Shown in pieces: positions 42,223-51,774 of a stretch of DNA of 64,000 nt. The position numbers and the translations under genes are program-made. The stretch spans positions 1,302,001 to 1,366,000 of the forward strand of contig NZ_JAWJEJ010000001.1 of assembly GCF_032911445.1 (NCBI RefSeq), read 5' to 3'. This DNA comes from Sphingomonas sp. HF-S4. GTDB taxonomy: Bacteria > Pseudomonadota > Alphaproteobacteria > Sphingomonadales > Sphingomonadaceae. Under the pieces are notes generated by a model. That model saw only the letters and a program-made list of their open reading frames with translations, was not told the origin of the DNA and did no database searches. Position 1 is the stretch's first letter. Every line of letters starts with the position of its first letter.

Positions 42223-43221
42223 ATGCGCGAACTCGCTCCTATCCAGATCGGCCTCGTCCGGGTCGAAGCCCCGGTGCTGCTTGCGCCGATGACCGGCGTG
42301 ACCGACCTGCCGTTTCGCCGCGTCGTGCGGCGCTATGGCTCGGGGCTCAACGTCACCGAAATGGTCGCCAGCCAGGCGGCAATCCGCGAGACCCGTCAGT
42401 CGCTCCAGAAATTCGCCTGGGACCCGATCGAGAACCCGGTGTCGATGCAGCTCGTCGGCTGTACGCCGCATGAGATGGCCGAGGCCGCCAAGCTCAGCGA
42501 AGAGCGCGGCGCGGCGATCGTCGACATCAATATGGGGTGTCCGGTCAGGAAGGTGACCAGCGGCGATGCAGGCTCGGCGCTGATGCGCGACTTGAAGCTC
42601 GCCGCATCGCTGATCGAGGCGTGCGTCCAGGCGGTTAGCGTGCCGGTCACGGTCAAGATGCGGATGGGCTGGTGCCATGACAGCCTCAACGCCCCCGAAC
42701 TCGCGCATATCGCCGAGGATCTGGGCGCAAAGATGATCACGGTCCACGGCCGTACGCGCAACCAGATGTACAAGGGCAGCGCCGACTGGGCCTTCATCCG
42801 CCAAGTGAAGGACGCCGTGTCGATTCCGGTGATCGCGAATGGCGACATCTGCACAATCGAGGACGCGCGCGCTGCGCTCGAGCAGTCCGGCGCCGACGGC
42901 GTGATGATCGGCCGTGGCGCCTATGGCCGACCGTGGATCCTGCGCCAGGTGATGGACGCGCTGACCGGCAAGCCCGAGCTTCCTGAGCCCTCGCTCGACG
43001 AGCAATATCGCGTGATCGTCGAGCATTATGTCGATACGCTCAGCCATTATGGCAACGAAGTCGGCGTCAACATGATGCGCAAGCATATCGGCTGGTATAC
43101 CAAGGGTATCCATGGCTCGGCTGAGTTCAGGAACAATGTGAACAAGCAGGCCGATCCCAAGGTCGTGCTCGAGATGCTCGCGGAATTCTATGCGCCATGG
43201 TCTTCGCGCGCGGCAGCCTGA
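42223..43221 (+). CDS. dusB: tRNA-dihydrouridine synthase (DusB/NifR3)
   Basis: 332 aa FMN TIM-barrel. [19 protein letters not shown] at the start, the active-site Cys in [12 protein letters not shown], the [13 protein letters not shown] segment and the flavin site [13 protein letters not shown]. It reduces uridine in the D-loop of tRNA. Known historically as nifR3 because it precedes ntrBC, exactly as here; its 3' end overlaps ntrB by 25 bp. Start [12 protein letters not shown] with an AGG 8 nt upstream; the extension upstream is rejected. Confidence 0.94.
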
Positions 43222-44294
43222 GGCGCGCCAAGCCGGAACCGACGGGACCCGGCTTTGGCGAGCTGTTCGCGGCGTTGCCCGTCGCCGTGCTGGTGATCGA
43301 CCCCGACGGCCGCATCGCCCATGCCAATTCGGCCTGCGAGCTGCTGCTCAACCATAGCGAGACGACGATGGTCGGGCAGCCGTATGACGCGGTGCTGCTG
43401 CCGCCCGAGGATTATGCCGATCGCCGCGACGGCCATGGCTTCGCCGCCTTCGACACCGAGATCGAGGCGGTTCGAGGCCCCAAGATGCGCGTCGATTTCG
43501 TCGAAAGCCCGATCGCCGACAAGCCCGGCTGGCGCATCGTCACGCTCCACCACGCGCCGCAGTCGCGCCGAGTCGCGCAGGGTGCCGACCGCACGGCGGG
43601 TGCGCGCGCGGCAGTCGGCGCGGCGGCGATGCTCGCGCACGAGATCAAGAACCCGCTTTCCGGGATCCGCGGCGCGGCGCAGCTCCTCCAGAATGCCGGC
43701 GAGGATGCCGAGCTCACCCAGCTCATCACCACCGAAGTCGACCGCATCGTCGCGCTGATCGACCGGATGCAGGACTTCACCGATACGCGCCCGCTCAAGC
43801 TGGCGCCGACCAACATCTATCCTTTGCTCGATCACGCCCGGCGCGTGGCGCTGGCGGGGTTCGCGCGCGACATGGTGATCGAGGAGCATTTCGATCCCTC
43901 GCTGCCGCCGGTGCTGATCGATCCCGACGCATTCCTCCAGGTGCTGCTCAACCTGCTCAAGAACGCGGCCGAAGCGCTGGGAGGTGCAGTGGCCGATCCG
44001 CGGATCATGCTGTCGACCGCCTATCGCCACGGTATGTCGGTGAGCACGGGACAGGGGCGCCCGCGGCAGAAGCTGCCGATCGAGATTCTCGTGGTCGATA
44101 ATGGTCCGGGTGCGCCGGCGGACATCGCCGAACATCTGTTCGAACCGTTCGTGTCGGGAAAGCCGGAGGGGAAGGGATTGGGGTTGCCGCTCGTCGAGAA
44201 GCTGGTTCGCGATCAAGGCGGCATCATCCAATATGCCCGAGAGCGCGAGCCCGAAGTGACCGTATTCCGCATCCTGCTGCCGAGGGCGGCGTGA
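43197..44294 (+). CDS. ntrB: Nitrogen regulation sensor kinase NtrB
   Basis: 365 aa cytoplasmic histidine kinase. N-terminal PAS domain (residues ~15-120), phosphorylated His148 in [15 protein letters not shown], HATPase with N-box [31 protein letters not shown] and [12 protein letters not shown]. No transmembrane segment. It responds to GlnB/PII and phosphorylates NtrC under nitrogen limitation. It begins inside the end of dusB and its stop overlaps the GTG of ntrC (GTGA), so dusB-ntrB-ntrC is one translational unit. Confidence 0.94.
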
Positions 44295-45733
44295 ACGGAT
44301 CGGTCCTGATCGTCGACGACGACGCGGCGATCCGCACCGTCGTCGCCGCCGCGCTCAAGCGCGAGGGGCATCAGGTGACCACCGCTGCAAGCATCGCCGA
44401 GCTGCGCCGCGCGCTGGCCGCCGGCGTGCCCGACGTACTGGTAACCGACGTGGTGCTGCCCGACGGCAACGGGCTCGACGTCGCCGCGGGGCTGGCCAGC
44501 GAATATCCCGAGCTGCCGATCATCGTCTTCTCGGCGCAGAATACGCTGGCGACCGCGGTGCGCGCCACCGAAGTCGGCGCGTTCGACTATCTGCCCAAGC
44601 CGTTCGACTTGGACGTGCTCGCCCAGGCGGTACGCGGCGCGATGGCGCGGCGGCAACGCGAGCCGGCCGAACTGCCCGAGGCCGAGATCGCCGGAGGATC
44701 GACGCTGATCGGGCGCTCGCCGGCGATGCAGGAAGTCTATCGCGTGATCGCTCGAGTGGTCGCCAACGACCTGACCGTGCTGATCTCGGGCGAGTCCGGC
44801 ACCGGCAAGGAGCTCGTCGCCAAGGCGGTCCACGATCTCGGTCCGCGTCGCCGCGCGCCGTTCGTGGCGCTCAACATGGCGGCGATCCCGCGCGAGCTGA
44901 TCGAGGCCGAACTGTTCGGGCACGAGCGCGGCGCCTTCACCGGCGCGGCGACGCGGGTGGCGGGCAAGTTCGAGCAGGCGGCGGGGGGCACGCTGTTCCT
45001 CGACGAGATCGGCGACATGCCGATGGACGCGCAGACGAGGCTGCTGCGCGTGCTCCAGTCGGGCGAGTTCACCACCGTCGGCGGTGCGCGGACGATCCGC
45101 GCCGATGTCCGCATCGTCGCCGCGACAAACAAGGATCTGGGCGTGCTGATACAGACCGGGCAGTTCCGCGAAGACCTGTTCTACCGGCTCAACGTCGTGC
45201 CGGTGAGCCTGCCTTCGCTACGCGAGCGCCGCCAGGACGTGCCGCTGCTCGCGCGCCATTTCCTCGATCGAGCGGCCGAGGCTGGGCTACCGCGAAAGCA
45301 GCTCGCCAAGGACGCGGTCGCGGTGCTCGAAGGCTATGACTGGCCCGGCAATGTCCGCGAGCTGGAAAACCTCATGCGCCGCATCGCTGCGCTCAGCCGC
45401 GACGAATGGATCGATGCCGAGGGCATCCGCGGCGCGATCGGCGAGGCGAGCAGCTTCCAGCCGGCGACTCGCGATCCCGGGATCGACGCGGCGGTACGCG
45501 CCCGGCTCGAGCGGATGGCGATCGAAGAGCCGCGCACGCTCGACGACGGCACGCTCTACGAACGGATCATCGGCGAAGTCGAACGTCCGTTGATCGAGGC
45601 GATGCTTGCCCGTCACCAGAACAACCAGCTTCGCGCGGCGCGAGCCTTAGGGATCAATCGTAACACGCTGCGGAAAAGGCTCGATACGTTGGGGATCGAT
45701 ATGGGCGGTGATCGACCAGTCGGCTCCGATTAG
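44291..45733 (+). CDS. ntrC: Nitrogen regulator NtrC (sigma-54 activator)
   Basis: 480 aa. Receiver with D53 in [15 protein letters not shown]+ domain with Walker A GESGTGKE (167-174), the sigma-54 contact loop GAFTGA (214-219) and Walker [15 protein letters not shown]-terminal Fis helix-turn-helix [20 protein letters not shown]. All elements for activating RpoN promoters of nitrogen-assimilation genes are intact. GTG start. It ends 60 bp before ntrY. Confidence 0.95.
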
Positions 45734-45793
45734 CGACGAGTAACCAAAAATTATGTGTTCTTTTTGCCACAATCTCGTTGTATCCCGGCAACG

Positions 45794-48052
45794 ATGGATG
45801 CCGTGACCGAGCCGATCACCGAAGCAGCACCGCGCAAGCGGCGCTTCGGTGTCACGCCCGCGGTCGAGGTCGGGGTTCTGGTAGTCGCAGTTGCGATCGC
45901 CGGTCTAACCTATGCGATGGCGATCGGTCGCGACTCTTCCGAGCAGCTATTGGCGCCGCCGACGATCGCACTCCTTCTCGTCGCCAACCTCATCTCTTGC
46001 GGTTCGCTGATCGTGCTGTTGGGCAGGCGCGTGGCGAAACGGCATGCGTCGCGATCGGCTTCAGGCGGGGACGGACGACTCCACGTACGGCTCGTTGCAA
46101 TTTTCTCGGTGCTCGCCTCGGTGCCTACCGTGCTGCTTGCGGTGATCGCATCGCTGCTCTTTCAGTATGCGGCCGAATTCTGGTTCTCCGATCGCAACCG
46201 CGGGATACTCGAAAATTCGCAACGGCTGGCGCAAGAATCCTATGCCCAACTGTTGAGCTATGTCGACAATGAGAATGTCGCGATGGCGAACGACGTGCGG
46301 CGCATGCTGTTCGAATATCGCTGGGAGCCGGACAGCAAGGAATTCTACGGCACACTCGCCCAGGGTGTGTATCAACGCAGCCTGTCGAATGCGGTGCTTT
46401 TCTCCGTCGATGCCAAGGGGCAAATCCAGACACTTGCGATCGTCAAAAATTCCGATCGCAACCCGATGCAGGACATCGAGTTCAACGATATCAAGAAGAT
46501 GCAGGCTGGCGCACCAAGCGTAGTGGGTACCAACGCTCAGCGGACCTATTCGCTCGCCCGTGTCGAGGGGACCGAGCTTTACCTGTATGCGACGCGCGAA
46601 GTCGGTGCGAAGGAAATGGCCGACCGTGTCGAGCGGGTTCGCACCGTCCTCACCGATTATCAGACGCTGCTGAGCCGTACGCGCGCCTTCCAGGTTCAGT
46701 TTAATATCGCGTTGCTGGTTATCTCGCTGTTCGTCATCGGTGTGGTAGTCTTCATCGCCCTTGCGGTTGCGGACCGGCTGGTCCGCCCGGTCAACGAACT
46801 CGTCGGCGCGGCGCGTAAGGTTGCGGCCGGTGATCTCAAGGCACGGGTGCCCGAGCGCAAGACGCGCGACGAGATCGGCGTGCTTGCCGGGGCGTTCAAC
46901 CAGATGACCAGCCAGTTGCAGGCACAGACCAACGCGCTGGTCACCGCCAATGCCCAGCTCGAGAGCCGGCGCGCGCTGATCGAGGCAGTGATGTCCGGCG
47001 TGTCGGCGGGCGTGGTCTCGATCGGCTCGGACCGCACGGTGCGGCTGATGAACGCCTCGGCGCTGGCGCTGCTGCGTTGCGACGAGGTGGACTCGGTAGG
47101 CAAGCCGCTCGGCGTGATCGCGCCCGAGCTCGAAGCGCTGCTCGACGCACCCGAGCGCGAGGCGGTGGTCCAGGTCACCGTCGGCGGCGAGGCGCGGACG
47201 CTCGCGGTCAAGATAACGTCGGACGAGGCCGGGCAGGTGCTTACCTTCGACGACATCACCCAGCAACTGCTCGACCAGCGCCGCGCGGCCTGGTCCGACG
47301 TGGCGCGGCGGATCGCGCACGAGATCAAGAACCCGCTTACGCCGATCCAGCTCGCCGCCGAGCGGCTCCAGCGCCGCTACGGCAAGCAGATCGAGGGCGG
47401 GGAGGGCGTTTTCAGCCAGCTGACCGGGACGATCGTGCGCCAGGTCGGCGACCTGCGCCGGATGGTCGATGAATTCTCCTCCTTCGCGCGGATGCCGAAG
47501 CCGCTGTTCCGCCGCGAATCGCTGCTCGACATGGCGCGCCAGGCGATGTTCCTCCACGAAGTCGCGCATCCGACGATCCGCTTCGAGCTAGACGTGCCCG
47601 ACGAGCCGCCGAGCCTCGTCTCGGATCGCCGCCAGATGGGGCAGGCGCTGACCAACGTCATCAAGAACGCCGTCGAGGCGATCGAGGCGCGGGGCGAAGG
47701 CGAGGCGCTGCCGCAGGGCGAAGTCGTGCTGACGATCCGCCAGCAGAACCCGCAGCACATCCTGCTCACCATCGCCGACAACGGCATCGGCCTGCCCGTC
47801 GAGCGAGACCGCATCGTCGAGCCCTATATGACCACCCGCAGCCGCGGCACCGGCCTCGGCCTCGCGATCGTCAAGAAGATCGTCGAGGAGCATTGCGGCA
47901 CGATCGGCTTCAGTGACCGTGCGGGCGGCGGGACGGTCGTCTCGATCGGCTTCGACACCGACGCGCTTGATAAACTCGCGCAACAGAACTCCGACGGCGA
48001 GGCCGCCGAACCGCGCGCGCCTGCCCTTACCAGAACCGGAAAATCTTCATGA
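45794..48052 (+). CDS. ntrY: Membrane sensor kinase NtrY
   Basis: 752 aa. About four transmembrane helices: two near the N-terminus (VGVLVVAVAIAGLTYAMA; LLLVANLISCGSLIVLLG), one before and one after a periplasmic stretch (ALLVISLFVIGVVVFIALA), then HAMP, PAS and the kinase core with His509 in [14 protein letters not shown] and HATPase motifs VIKNAVEAI, IADNGIGLP and RGTGLGLAIVKK. Partner of NtrX; in alphaproteobacteria the pair affects nitrogen, redox and envelope genes. I chose MDAVTEPITEAAP; a GTG 13 codons upstream is the alternative. AT-richer leader of 60 bp probably holds a promoter. Confidence 0.92.
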   Translation: MDAVTEPITEAAPRKRRFGVTPAVEVGVLVVAVAIAGLTYAMAIGRDSSEQLLAPPTIALLLVANLISCGSLIVLLGRRVAKRHASRSASGGDGRLHVRLVAIFSVLASVPTVLLAVIASLLFQYAAEFWFSDRNRGILENSQRLAQESYAQLLSYVDNENVAMANDVRRMLFEYRWEPDSKEFYGTLAQGVYQRSLSNAVLFSVDAKGQIQTLAIVKNSDRNPMQDIEFNDIKKMQAGAPSVVGTNAQRTYSLARVEGTELYLYATREVGAKEMADRVERVRTVLTDYQTLLSRTRAFQVQFNIALLVISLFVIGVVVFIALAVADRLVRPVNELVGAARKVAAGDLKARVPERKTRDEIGVLAGAFNQMTSQLQAQTNALVTANAQLESRRALIEAVMSGVSAGVVSIGSDRTVRLMNASALALLRCDEVDSVGKPLGVIAPELEALLDAPEREAVVQVTVGGEARTLAVKITSDEAGQVLTFDDITQQLLDQRRAAWSDVARRIAHEIKNPLTPIQLAAERLQRRYGKQIEGGEGVFSQLTGTIVRQVGDLRRMVDEFSSFARMPKPLFRRESLLDMARQAMFLHEVAHPTIRFELDVPDEPPSLVSDRRQMGQALTNVIKNAVEAIEARGEGEALPQGEVVLTIRQQNPQHILLTIADNGIGLPVERDRIVEPYMTTRSRGTGLGLAIVKKIVEEHCGTIGFSDRAGGGTVVSIGFDTDALDKLAQQNSDGEAAEPRAPALTRTGKSS

Positions 48053-49428
48053 GCCTCGATATCCTCGTCGTCGACGACGAACGTGACATCCGCGAACTGG
48101 TCGCCGGCGTGCTCGAGGACGAAGGCTACGCCACCCGCGGTGCCGCCGACAGCGATGCCGCGCTCGAAGCGATTGCCGAGCGCCGGCCGAGCTTGGTGCT
48201 GCTCGACGTGTGGCTCCAAGGCTCTCGGCTCGACGGGCTCGAACTGCTCGACGAGATGAAGCGGCGCGATCCCTCGATCCCCGTGCTGGTGATCTCGGGG
48301 CACGGCAATATCGACACCGCGGTCGCCGCGATCCGCCGCGGCGCCTCCGACTTCATCGAGAAGCCGTTCGAGGCCGAGCGGCTGCTGCTGCTCGTCGAGC
48401 GCGCGACCGAGACCGAACGGCTGCGCCGCGAAGTCGTGTCGCTGCGCGCCTCGGTTGGCCGGGAGACGGACCTCACCGGCAATTCGGCGGCGATCAACAC
48501 CGTGCGCGCTACCTTGAAGCGCGTCGCGTCGACCGGCAGCCGGGTGCTGATCACCGGCGGGCCGGGGGTGGGCAAGGAAGTCGCGGCACGGCTGCTCCAT
48601 GGCTGGAGCCAGCGCACTGCTGCGCCGTTCGTGATCGTCAGCGCGGCGCGGATGACGCCCGAGCGAGTCGAGGAGGAATTGTTCGGAGTGGAGGAGGGTG
48701 GCGACCTGGTCCGCCCCGGGCTTCTCGAACAAGCCCATGGTGGCACGCTGTTCCTCGACGAGATCGCCGATATGCCGGTGGCGACGCAGGCGCGGATTTT
48801 GCGCGTGCTCACCGATCAGAGCTTCAGCCGCGTCGGCGGCACGCGGGTCGTCAAGGTCGATGTCCGTGTCGTCTCGGCGACTGCGCGCGACTTGATGGCC
48901 GAGATTGCCGCGGGGCGCTTCCGCGAGGATCTCTATTACCGGCTCAACGTAGTTCCGGTTGCGATTCCCCCTTTGACCGAGCGGCGGGAGGACATCCCGG
49001 TGCTCGTCGAGCATTTCGTCGCGCATTATGCCAGCGAGCGCCGCGTGCCGACGCCCGAGATCGCACCCGATGCGATCGTCGCGCTGCAAAGCTATGAATG
49101 GCCGGGCAATGTTCGCCAGCTGCGCAATGTCGTCGAGCGCACGGTGATCCTCGCGCCGGGGGATCGGATCGGGCGGATCGACCTAGACCTGCTGCCTCCC
49201 GAGGTGCTGGGGCGACAGGGGGAGGCGGGGCCCGGCGGCGGCGCCACCGCGATCATGGGCGCGCCGCTCAAGGAAGCGCGCGAGAGCTTCGAGCGCGAGT
49301 ATCTGCGCGTCCAGATCCGCCGCTTCTCGGGCAACATCTCGCGCACCGCGAGCTTCATCGGGATGGAGCGCTCGGCGCTGCATCGCAAATTGAAGCTGCT
49401 CGGGATCACCGAGACGCGCGACGAGTAG
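48049..49428 (+). CDS. ntrX: Response regulator NtrX
   Basis: 459 aa. Receiver with D53 in LVLLDVWLQGS; AAA+ domain with Walker A GGPGVGKE (170-177) and Walker [15 protein letters not shown]-terminal Fis-type HTH GNISRTASFIGMERSALHRK. The place where NtrC has GAFTGA reads GVEEGGD, so the sigma-54 contact loop is missing, as is known for alphaproteobacterial NtrX, which can act at sigma-70 promoters. ATG overlaps the ntrY stop (ATGA). Confidence 0.94.
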   Translation: MSLDILVVDDERDIRELVAGVLEDEGYATRGAADSDAALEAIAERRPSLVLLDVWLQGSRLDGLELLDEMKRRDPSIPVLVISGHGNIDTAVAAIRRGASDFIEKPFEAERLLLLVERATETERLRREVVSLRASVGRETDLTGNSAAINTVRATLKRVASTGSRVLITGGPGVGKEVAARLLHGWSQRTAAPFVIVSAARMTPERVEEELFGVEEGGDLVRPGLLEQAHGGTLFLDEIADMPVATQARILRVLTDQSFSRVGGTRVVKVDVRVVSATARDLMAEIAAGRFREDLYYRLNVVPVAIPPLTERREDIPVLVEHFVAHYASERRVPTPEIAPDAIVALQSYEWPGNVRQLRNVVERTVILAPGDRIGRIDLDLLPPEVLGRQGEAGPGGGATAIMGAPLKEARESFEREYLRVQIRRFSGNISRTASFIGMERSALHRKLKLLGITETRDE

Positions 49429-49429
49429 C

Positions 49430-49747
49430 CTAGGGCGTAGCAAGCTTCATCAGGCTGATCCCGGCGACGATCAGCGCGGCCGCGGCGAGCCGCATCGGGC
49501 TGGCGCTTTCGCCGAGCAGCACTACGCCGACGATGAAGGCCCCGACCGCGCCGATCCCGGTCCATATCATATAGCTGGTGCCGAGCGGAAGCTGGCGCAT
49601 CGCCCAGGCGAGCAGGCCGAAGCTCAGGAACATGAAGACGAAGGTGGCGATCGCCGGACCGGGCCGCGTGAAGCCGTCCGACAGCTTCATGAAATAGGCC
49701 CAGACGACTTCGAGCAGGCCGGCGAAGAACAATGCGATCCAGGCCAT
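49430..49747 (-). CDS. gdx: Guanidinium exporter Gdx (SugE, SMR family)
   Basis: 105 aa, four transmembrane helices. [19 protein letters not shown] with the essential Glu13 in LLEVVW, then [19 protein letters not shown] and [20 protein letters not shown]: these match the Gdx/SugE branch (GTGIGAVG, LLGES-x-PMRL) rather than EmrE. Gdx swaps protonated guanidinium for two protons. Start chosen at MAWIAL, after an AAAGGAGG site; the long upstream frame is non-coding. The leader holds an ACGG-loop hairpin (see regulatory entry). Convergent with ntrX. Confidence 0.93.
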
Positions 49748-49752
49748 CGGGC

Positions 49753-49780
49753 CCTCCTTTGGAAGGCCGGGCCGTCCCGG
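49753..49780 (-). promoter_or_regulatory. Candidate guanidine-II (mini-ykkC)-like leader element of gdx
   Basis: On the minus strand CCGGG-ACGG-CCCGG forms a 5-bp stem with a tetraloop fitting the ACGR consensus of guanidine-II hairpins. It is followed directly by CTTCC-AAA-GGAGG, which can pair (one G-U) and hide the SD of gdx. A true guanidine-II switch has two ACGR hairpins; upstream I see only GAGG-CCACGC-CCTC, not canonical. The gdx context makes the call plausible, but it is only half supported. Confidence 0.35.
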
Positions 49781-49982
49781 GCATTGGCCTGCGAAGATGC
49801 AGGGGAGGGCGTGGCCTCGCGCCGCCGATCTAGGGAAATCGCATCGCGGCTTCAAGCGGGCATATGGACGCGGCGGGGCGCAGCGCCTAGACTGACCCAA
49901 GCGCCGAGGTGGCGCGACATTCCGACGCCGGGAACCGGCGCGACGCGGGACATGAGCCCGCCAAGAATAGAAGGAAATCAAC

Positions 49983-50474
49983 ATGGCCGAGAAGCAGACC
50001 TCGCTTCAGGATCTTTTCCTCAACTCGCTCCGGCGCTCGAAGGTGCCGGTCACCATGTTCCTGGTGAAAGGCGTCAAGCTCCAGGGCATCGTCACCTGGT
50101 TCGACAATTTCTCCGTGCTGCTGCGCCGCGACGGCCAGTCGCAGCTCATCTACAAGCACGCCATCTCGACGATCATGCCGGCGGGCCAGATCGACCTTGC
50201 CGCGCTCCTCGAATCCGCTGGAGAGTTCCAGCACAAGAACCCGGTCTTGCAGGAAATTTTCCTCAACGCGGTCCGCAAGCAGCAGGAAAACGTCACGATG
50301 TTCCTGGTCAACGGCGTGATGCTCCAGGGCCAGATCGCTGCGTTCGACCTGTTCTGCATGCTGCTCCAGCGCGAGGGCATGGCGCAGCTGGTCTACAAGC
50401 ACGCCGTCTCGACGATCCAGCCGGCGCATCCGCTCAACCTCGCCGAGGAAACGAACGGCACCGACGGCGATTGA
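49983..50474 (+). CDS. hfq: RNA chaperone Hfq with two tandem Sm domains
   Basis: 163 aa, twice the core size. Sm domain 1 spans about 7-66 ([18 protein letters not shown] to [10 protein letters not shown]), a linker 67-87, and Sm domain 2 about 88-148 ([18 protein letters not shown] to [10 protein letters not shown]). Both keep the Sm2 signature YKHA(I/V)STI and a Phe in FD-x-F for uridine binding at the proximal face. They differ: the rim patch is RRSK in domain 1 and RKQQ in domain 2, and the distal-face Lys is K in domain 1 but M in domain 2. A pseudo-hexamer of three chains is expected. Short acidic C-terminus. Followed by hflX after 7 bp. Confidence 0.93.
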
Positions 50475-50481
50475 TGGCCGC

Positions 50482-51774
50482 ATGAGTACTGGTTTCGATC
50501 GCGACGCCGACGAGTTCACCCGCGGCGCGCGTGCGGTTGTCGTCTATCCCGACATGGGCGGCAGCTCGCGCGACGCGGAGGCTCGGCTGGAGGAGACTGC
50601 CGGGCTCGCCGCGGCGATCGGGGTCGAGGTGCGCGAGAAGCTCGCGGTGAAGCTCCGGCAACCCAAGCCGGGGACGCTGATCGGCTCGGGCCAGGTCGAG
50701 GCGATCGCGGAAAGCGTTCGCGATTCCGAGCTTCAGCTCGCCGTCTTTGACGCAGCCCTGACGCCCGTCCAGCAACGCAACCTCGAGACCGCGCTCGGTT
50801 GCAAGGTAATCGACCGCACCGGCCTGATCCTCGAGATTTTCGGGGAGCGCGCGCGCACGGCCGAGGGCCGGCTCCAGGTCGAGCTTGCGCATCTCGACTA
50901 CCAGGCGGGCCGGCTGGTGCGTAGCTGGACGCACTTGGAGCGCCAGCGCGGCGGCTTCGGCTTTCTCGGCGGCCCGGGCGAGACCCAGATCGAGGCCGAC
51001 CGCCGGCTGATCCGTGACCGGATGGCGCGGCTCAAGAAGGAACTCGACCAGGTCAGCCGCACTCGCACGCTTCACCGCGACCGGCGCCAGCGCGCACCCT
51101 GGCCCATAATTGCGCTCGTTGGCTATACCAATGCGGGAAAATCGACACTTTTCAATAGGTTGACCGGTGCTGACGTCATGGCGGAGAATTTGCTGTTCGC
51201 TACGCTCGATCCGACGCTGCGGCAGATCGCATTGCCCGGGATCGACAAGGCGATCCTGTCGGATACGGTGGGGTTCGTTTCCGAACTGCCGACCCAGCTC
51301 GTCGCCGCGTTCAAGGCGACGCTGGAGGAGGTGGTTTCGGCCGACTTGCTCATCCATGTCCGTGACATCGCGCACCCCGACAGCGAGGCGCAGCGCGCCG
51401 ATGTCGAAAAGGTGCTCAGCGAGATCGGGGTGGCCGAAGCTACGCCGCGCTTTGAGGCATGGAACAAGCTAGACCTGCTCGACGACGAGCGCCGCGCACA
51501 GGCGCTTGAGGACGCGGGCCGGCGCGAGGACGTGATGCCGATCTCGGCCTGGACGGGGGAGGGCGTCGATACGCTGATCCAGACCGTCGCCGCGCGACTG
51601 ACCGCGGGGCATCGCCGCTACACGGTCACGCTACCCACCAGCGACGGGGCGGGCGCGGCGTGGCTCCACCAGCATGGCGAGGTCGTCGAGCAGCGAATCG
51701 AGGACGAGCAGGCGGTGTACGAAGTGCGAATGGCGCCGGGCGACTATGAGCGGTTTTTGACACGGCAGGGTTAA
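50482..51774 (+). CDS. hflX: GTPase HflX
   Basis: 430 aa. The N-terminal HflX domain has PKPGTLIGSGQVEAI and RTARTAEGRLQVELAHL, shown as ARTAEGRLQVELAHL, with GGPGETQIEADRR before a coiled-coil; the G domain follows with GYTNAGKSTLFN (G1, about residue 214-225), DTVGFVSELP (G3) and NKLDLL (G4). It binds 50S and can split stalled or heat-damaged ribosomes. ATG 7 bp after hfq, a conserved hfq-hflX pair, with ATG chosen over no better option. A ribosome binding site is not obvious, which suggests coupling to hfq. Confidence 0.95.
   Translation: MSTGFDRDADEFTRGARAVVVYPDMGGSSRDAEARLEETAGLAAAIGVEVREKLAVKLRQPKPGTLIGSGQVEAIAESVRDSELQLAVFDAALTPVQQRNLETALGCKVIDRTGLILEIFGERARTAEGRLQVELAHLDYQAGRLVRSWTHLERQRGGFGFLGGPGETQIEADRRLIRDRMARLKKELDQVSRTRTLHRDRRQRAPWPIIALVGYTNAGKSTLFNRLTGADVMAENLLFATLDPTLRQIALPGIDKAILSDTVGFVSELPTQLVAAFKATLEEVVSADLLIHVRDIAHPDSEAQRADVEKVLSEIGVAEATPRFEAWNKLDLLDDERRAQALEDAGRREDVMPISAWTGEGVDTLIQTVAARLTAGHRRYTVTLPTSDGAGAAWLHQHGEVVEQRIEDEQAVYEVRMAPGDYERFLTRQG

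Follow-up and report, generated by a model that had tools for sequence, protein, structure and literature searches.

We analysed a window of 64,000 nucleotides from Sphingomonas sp. HF-S4 (contig NZ_JAWJEJ010000001.1, positions 1,302,001 to 1,366,000; family Sphingomonadaceae, order Sphingomonadales, class Alphaproteobacteria, phylum Pseudomonadota), which carries a gene for the RNA chaperone Hfq with two Sm domains joined in a single chain. Ordinary Hfq assembles six identical units into a ring and matches small RNAs (sRNAs) with messenger RNAs (mRNAs). The two-domain architecture is already known. What appears to be new is a strictly conserved, charge-balanced asymmetry between the first domain (D1) and the second (D2), most simply of one origin.

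The hfq gene is a single uninterrupted frame from ATG to TGA (Table 1). Its translation of 163 residues is matched in two stretches by the Pfam model Hfq (PF17209; 192.5 bits for the whole protein, cut-off 27), and over residues 1-160 by the NCBIfam model NF010691 (PRK14091, 'RNA chaperone Hfq'; 290.5 bits, cut-off 270), spanning profile positions 16-174 of 176. An earlier sequence-only reading of this DNA had proposed two Sm domains in one chain, and the translation and both models bear this out. The residues that it named are also correct: rim RRSK (17-20) versus RKQQ (98-101), distal K32 versus M113, and YKHAIST versus YKHAVST. A frame error or one-off assembly artefact, which it had named as the finding that would undo the proposal, is excluded: both domains lie in one frame in all 161 two-domain loci that we fetched. 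D1 and D2 are identical at 35 of 60 aligned sites. Both contain Q8, K56 and H57 (sites in E. coli Hfq numbering here and below) and YKHA.ST, which we take to be the proximal pocket and the Sm2 motif of Hfq. A profile scan of the window's genome found no further Hfq locus. Among the matches listed, from which the records nearest the window are possibly omitted, the best named relative is the Sphingomonas naasensis protein (96% identity).

Table 1. Features of the two-domain hfq locus, in window positions; domain coordinates were converted from the genome coordinates of the profile scan
Feature	Position	Strand	Basis
Likely ribosome-binding site of hfq, AAGGA	49971..49975	+	read from sequence, upstream of ATG
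hfq, two-domain form, 163 aa plus stop	49983..50474	+	translation; Pfam; NCBIfam NF010691
Sm domain 1 (D1)	50004..50192	+	PF17209 match, 105.1 bits (genome scan)
D1 rim codons R17 R18 S19 K20 (E. coli sites 16-19)	50031..50042	+	
D1 K29 = E. coli site 28, changed from N	50067..50069	+	
D1 K32 = E. coli site 31, kept	50076..50078	+	
Linker, residues 67-89, 23 aa from D1 site 64 to D2 site 8	50181..50249	+	
Sm domain 2 (D2)	50247..50435	+	PF17209 match, 91.4 bits (genome scan)
D2 rim codons R98 K99 Q100 Q101 (E. coli sites 16-19)	50274..50285	+	
D2 N110 = E. coli site 28, kept	50310..50312	+	
D2 M113 = E. coli site 31, changed from K	50319..50321	+	
Presumed hflX, named after its homologue beside hfq in E. 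coli	50482..51774	+	open reading frame

Conserved differences between the two domains

The 161 loci come from 80 coded genomes of 41 genera (80 of the 202 coded two-domain genomes), 80 named records and the window. They hold 151 distinct proteins, and coded and named genomes may overlap. The 14 proteins of one diverged genus, g12, are counted apart from the other 147 loci (137 distinct proteins).

At distal sites 28 and 31 the two domains have changed in opposite directions. In single-domain Hfq, sites 28 and 31 are N and K in 50/50 proteins of the order and in 54/54 further proteins, of which 40 belong to the class and 14 to the rest of the phylum; these 54 are a non-random sample drawn from better-scoring matches. 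Outside g12, D1 has K28 and K31 in 147/147 loci, and D2 has N28 and M31 in 147/147. With these residues fixed, sites 28 and 31 together carry a charge of +1 per single domain, +2 per D1 and 0 per D2; a ring in which D1 and D2 alternate would hold the usual +6, redistributed. In all, four sites are conserved at 95% or more within each domain and yet differ between D1 and D2: 28 (K/N), 31 (K/M), 41 (N/L) and 63 (M/Q). The last two are changes of D2, N41L being present in 142 of the 147 loci and M63Q in every one. The sequence-only reading had described unequal faces from K31M and the rim, and both are seen here; N28K in D1 and N41L and M63Q in D2 had been overlooked. These counts do not represent independent events, because they include duplicates and possibly overlapping genomes, and because one stem change per site is enough to produce them.

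The conservation of the RNA-binding faces, to which we assigned sites on our own assumption, also differs between the domains. The mean entropy of the proximal face is 0.00 bits in D1, 0.21 in D2 and 0.04 in single domains; that of the distal face is 0.03, 0.01 and 0.08, and that of the rim 0.17, 1.40 and 0.11, respectively. Over the whole domain, D2 is more variable than D1 (0.61 versus 0.25). The mean net charge of rim sites 16-19 is 2.90 in D1, 0.76 in D2 and 2.86 in single domains. R16 is kept in D2 in 115/147 loci. D1 is richer than D2 in arginines at sites 16, 17 and 19 in 83/147. The D2 rim has drifted and lost charge, with the D1 rim staying basic. The proximal residues Q8, K56 and H57 are present in 147/147 loci in D2 and likewise in D1, and the YKHA/ST core of D2 is also kept in 147/147.

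The g12 proteins (140-169 residues) keep K28 in D1 and N28 in D2 in 14/14 cases. Site 31 is R in eight and K in six of their D1 domains; in D2 it is M in eight, A in three, and L, R and S in one each. Distal Q33 is lost from D2 in 9/14 and kept in D1 in 14/14. In four proteins (L137, L140, L145 and L146) the proximal H57 of D1 is replaced by Q and that of D2 is kept. These losses may represent a further division of the faces between the two halves.

Distribution and origin

We counted Hfq matches by hand in a sample of 296 genomes of the order, 213 of the window's family and 83 of other families, and found a match in 290. Within the family, 202/213 genomes have two matches and 11/213 have one, the latter falling into seven genera (g7, g13, g18, g28, g39, g44 and g47). 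In the other families, 76 genomes have one match, six have none and one (G001) has two. These two matches lie on different contigs (C9 and C82), and the second is a fragment covering only 38 profile positions. The duplication had been called a probable sphingomonad trait; this holds for most of the family and is not universal. The accompanying statement that Novosphingobium has a duplicated Hfq is backed indirectly, by a passage in a Burkholderia paper that gives N. aromaticivorans two hfq-like copies (PMC3474761).

In a sample of the class, at least 3/240 genomes exceed the NF010691 cut-off, which strongly diverged tandems would escape, and all of these belong to the window's family. The Pfam model gave two matches in 2/58 genomes of the class, each belonging to the window's genus, and in 3/60 genomes of the phylum, namely the same two and G553. 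The last of these is outside the family and has its matches on different contigs (C53 and C111). Two records named Bacillus sp. 2B10 (L076) and Microvirga sp. SRT01 (L080) carry a Sphingomonas-like two-domain hfq and are probably mislabelled genomes.

We built a tree of 21 taxa from genes that we take to be dusB, ntrB, ntrC, ntrY, ntrX, hflX and mazG, with ntrB and ntrC masked in g18, g47 and g12. The 10 two-domain taxa group together in a single clade with support of 100/100. The family's seven single-domain genera fall outside it, with g7 branching first; in this tree the g35 row is hflX alone, g12 is represented by a single genome, and support is weak at some inner nodes. With the two-domain taxa in one clade, a single origin is the simplest explanation. 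In this tree the two-domain form is restricted to a single clade within the family, and most simply it arose once, by internal duplication. Site 24 is M in 10/11 single-domain proteins of the family, in 139/147 D1 and in 144/147 D2 domains, and V in 38/39 single-domain proteins of other families. The shared M24 fits a duplication of the family's own gene.

Loss of one domain and transfer of an ntrYX-hfq-hflX segment were considered and rejected. Transfer was suspected from discordant gene-by-gene trees, for which paralogues picked up by the ntrB and ntrC queries are one cause. In the unmasked seven-gene tree g12 grouped with the single-domain genera g18 and g47 at 100/100, because the ntrC query in g18, g47 and g12, and the ntrB query in g47, had matched ntrX/ntrY paralogues. 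The loci of these genera (L216, L220 and L227) show no true ntrB or ntrC within the fetched 20 kb, where the queries matched ntrY/ntrX paralogues or nothing, which is a trap for gene trees. Ten single-domain proteins of the family are nested within the two-domain proteins in the HflX tree, in which the key nodes are weakly supported (0.008 and 0.876); the HflX-only results still count, weakly, against one two-domain clade. A tree of the domains themselves (FastTree, 60 columns) recovers D2, including that of g12, as one group; eight divergent g12 D1 domains stand beside it with support of 0.0. This placement is probably long-branch attraction, and as deep support is poor we draw no conclusion from it.

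Predicted structure

AlphaFold2 models of single chains have high confidence. The window's protein, modelled from an alignment of 53 two-domain proteins, has a predicted local distance difference test score (pLDDT) of 90.5 and a predicted template modelling score (pTM) of 0.85. The g12 protein L140, 42% identical to it and modelled from 23 sequences, reaches 91.9 and 0.87. Each half superposes on solved single Hfq chains (VIA). The best Foldseek row is the Hfq of Caulobacter crescentus (PDB 6gwk, 74% identity; VIA row 70%). All Foldseek and VIA rows shown are single Hfq domains, and so they do not address how D1 and D2 are arranged. The 35 distinct matched PDB sequences, the longest of 114 aa, include no solved two-domain Hfq.

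The linker measures 21-25 aa in 147/147 loci outside g12 and 16-23 aa in the 14 g12 proteins; model blocks in residues 71-90 have a pLDDT of 77-82. The C-terminal tail has a mean length of 15.6 residues, 5.2 of them D or E. An acidic tip, defined as at least three D/E among the last six residues, is present in only 100/161 proteins, and we therefore do not call it general. The single-domain Hfq of Caulobacter shares the fold, the basic rim and the acidic tail, which is described there as covering the rim and restraining annealing (PMC6561178).

Discussion

Yang et al. (2010) reported two Sm-like domains in the Hfq of Zymomonas mobilis and in that of six further species of Sphingomonadales, and already asked whether three proteins make a ring (PMC2877685). 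The Z. mobilis protein (ZMO0347; NF010691/PRK14091) has the same architecture, and the window's protein passes the model cut-off over its length. The passages of that paper that we consulted, its Discussion among them, do not describe the N28K/K31M pair, the one-sided decay of the rim or a single origin. A term search of two later papers on Zymomonas hfq found neither 'hexamer' nor 'trimer' (PMC7546472, PMC9797736), and the literature searched, which covers few subscription papers, yielded no description of the residue asymmetry between D1 and D2.

We consider it probable that this protein serves as the sole Hfq and that three of its chains form a pseudo-hexamer with alternating surfaces. Two observations favour such a ring, the high pTM of the single chain and the balanced charge at sites 28 and 31; the N28K/K31M asymmetry is evidence for alternation at the level of sequence and falls short of proof. 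D1 and D2 would lie side by side in the chain, and three chains would close the ring. Its distal face would alternate +2/0/+2/0 at sites 28 and 31, with the total of +6 found in an ordinary ring, and strong and weak rims would alternate as well. About three strong annealing patches would thus replace six, and there would be three tails in place of six. The distal face would probably gain a three-fold register for A-rich RNA, and the proximal pore would still accept U-rich sRNA ends.

More tentatively, and at somewhat less than even weight, we suggest that this might be a true alternating hetero-ring. One duplication and two complementary distal changes would have made three plus three RNA sites out of six equal ones, with the annealing arginines concentrated on one type of unit, and g12 would have gone further in the same direction.

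Several points weigh against the alternating pseudo-hexamer and its proposed consequences. The balanced sum at sites 28 and 31 rests phylogenetically on two stem changes and may be a coincidence. The pTM does not say which contact between D1 and D2 is the one modelled. Arginines at sites 16, 17 and 19 are equally frequent in both domains in 59/147 loci and more frequent in D2 in 5/147; by these counts the RKQQ rim of the window's protein is a mild case. A clean split of functions is not what the proximal pocket suggests, since its site 41 is the one changed from N to L in D2. In E. coli, sRNA-mRNA chimeras are nearly abolished by the exchange R16A and reduced by K31A, yet K31A has a mild effect in reporter assays (PMC12262471), and K31M may therefore have little consequence. 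Simulations of Pseudomonas Hfq indicate that it is the backbone of N28 that helps to keep the third nucleotide of A-R-N repeats in place, and the backbone of K31 that contacts the A nucleotide (PMC8121710); the side-chain changes may therefore serve another role, for example towards a partner protein. N28 and R19 are listed among the residues that touch Crc in Hfq-Crc assemblies (PMC9890229). N28K and K31M may thus act on RNA register or on a partner surface.

The ring might alternate without any special function, the D2 surface having drifted by constructive neutral evolution and N28K and K31M compensating each other. The highly variable D2 rim (1.40 bits), the changes of g12 in both domains and the mild effect of K31A in E. 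coli (PMC12262471) would all be expected under such drift. However, sites 28 and 31 are invariant in 147/147 loci in either domain outside g12, and the distal face is the best conserved face of D2 (0.01 bits), which drift alone does not explain. We regard this account as rather unlikely.

Alternatively, six chains could build two homotypic hexamers, one of D1 and one of D2, which the linkers would tie into a stacked double ring. A linker of 21-25 residues may suffice in length, and the faces differ as they would in two specialised rings. Such homotypic rings would carry +12 and 0 at sites 28 and 31 instead of the usual +6 of a mixed ring, and most rim patches of the D2 ring would be weak; the high single-chain pTM fits close packing of D1 and D2, though it is compatible with stacking. 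This arrangement seems improbable. That D2 stands outside the ring as a degenerating extension of a D1 hexamer is suggested by its greater divergence (mean entropy 0.61 versus 0.25) and is very improbable, as Q8, K56, H57 and the YKHA/ST core are kept in D2 in 147/147 loci, the domain is modelled with high confidence and superposes on Hfq, and it occurs in every fetched genome of the clade.

In alphaproteobacterial single-domain Hfq each chain contributes one Sm domain to a ring of six identical subunits, and N28/K31 is present in 40/40 proteins; the alternating three-chain ring would differ from this. In principle the alternating ring would resemble the eukaryotic Sm/LSm hetero-rings, in which unlike Sm subunits derive from a like-subunit ancestor. 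Those have seven domains on separate chains; here two types share one chain, six domains are expected, and both match Hfq by sequence. The eukaryotic heteroheptamers are mentioned in PMC2877685. If the proposal is true, bacteria would have in the two-domain Hfq their own version of the transition that led from homomeric to heteromeric Sm rings. A uniform ring of six units makes it difficult to find out how many rim patches or distal sites are needed. As units with opposite, conserved changes are naturally paired here, this question could be addressed with domain-specific variants, for example in Zymomonas.

Genomic neighbourhood

The gene lies in a block dusB-ntrB-ntrC-ntrY-ntrX-(SMR-like)-hfq-hflX that spans positions 42223-51774. 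Only 7 bases separate the hfq stop from the start of the hflX frame, and an HflX relative is found directly downstream of hfq in 157/159 two-domain loci with room for it; two loci, L085 and L173, have no HflX match. The ntrX gene is upstream of hfq in 153/158 two-domain loci with room and in 11/11 single-domain loci of the family, as against 1/39 loci in other families of the order. Between ntrX and hfq, a short membrane-protein gene on the opposite strand (49430-49747, -) looks SMR/SugE-like by eye. A relative of it occurs anywhere in the fetched stretch in 5/160 other two-domain loci.

No Rfam family matched within the window at gathering thresholds. In Sphingopyxis, the sRNA SuhB together with Hfq represses translation of thnR, as summarised in a review (PMC6563040). 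Elsewhere in the window's genome, suhB has two matches, at G000:C2:83838-83913 and G000:C1:1474261-1474336, scoring 48.6 and 44.4 bits against a gathering score of 41. Among 14 control genomes, two were matched, one of them over the cut-off.
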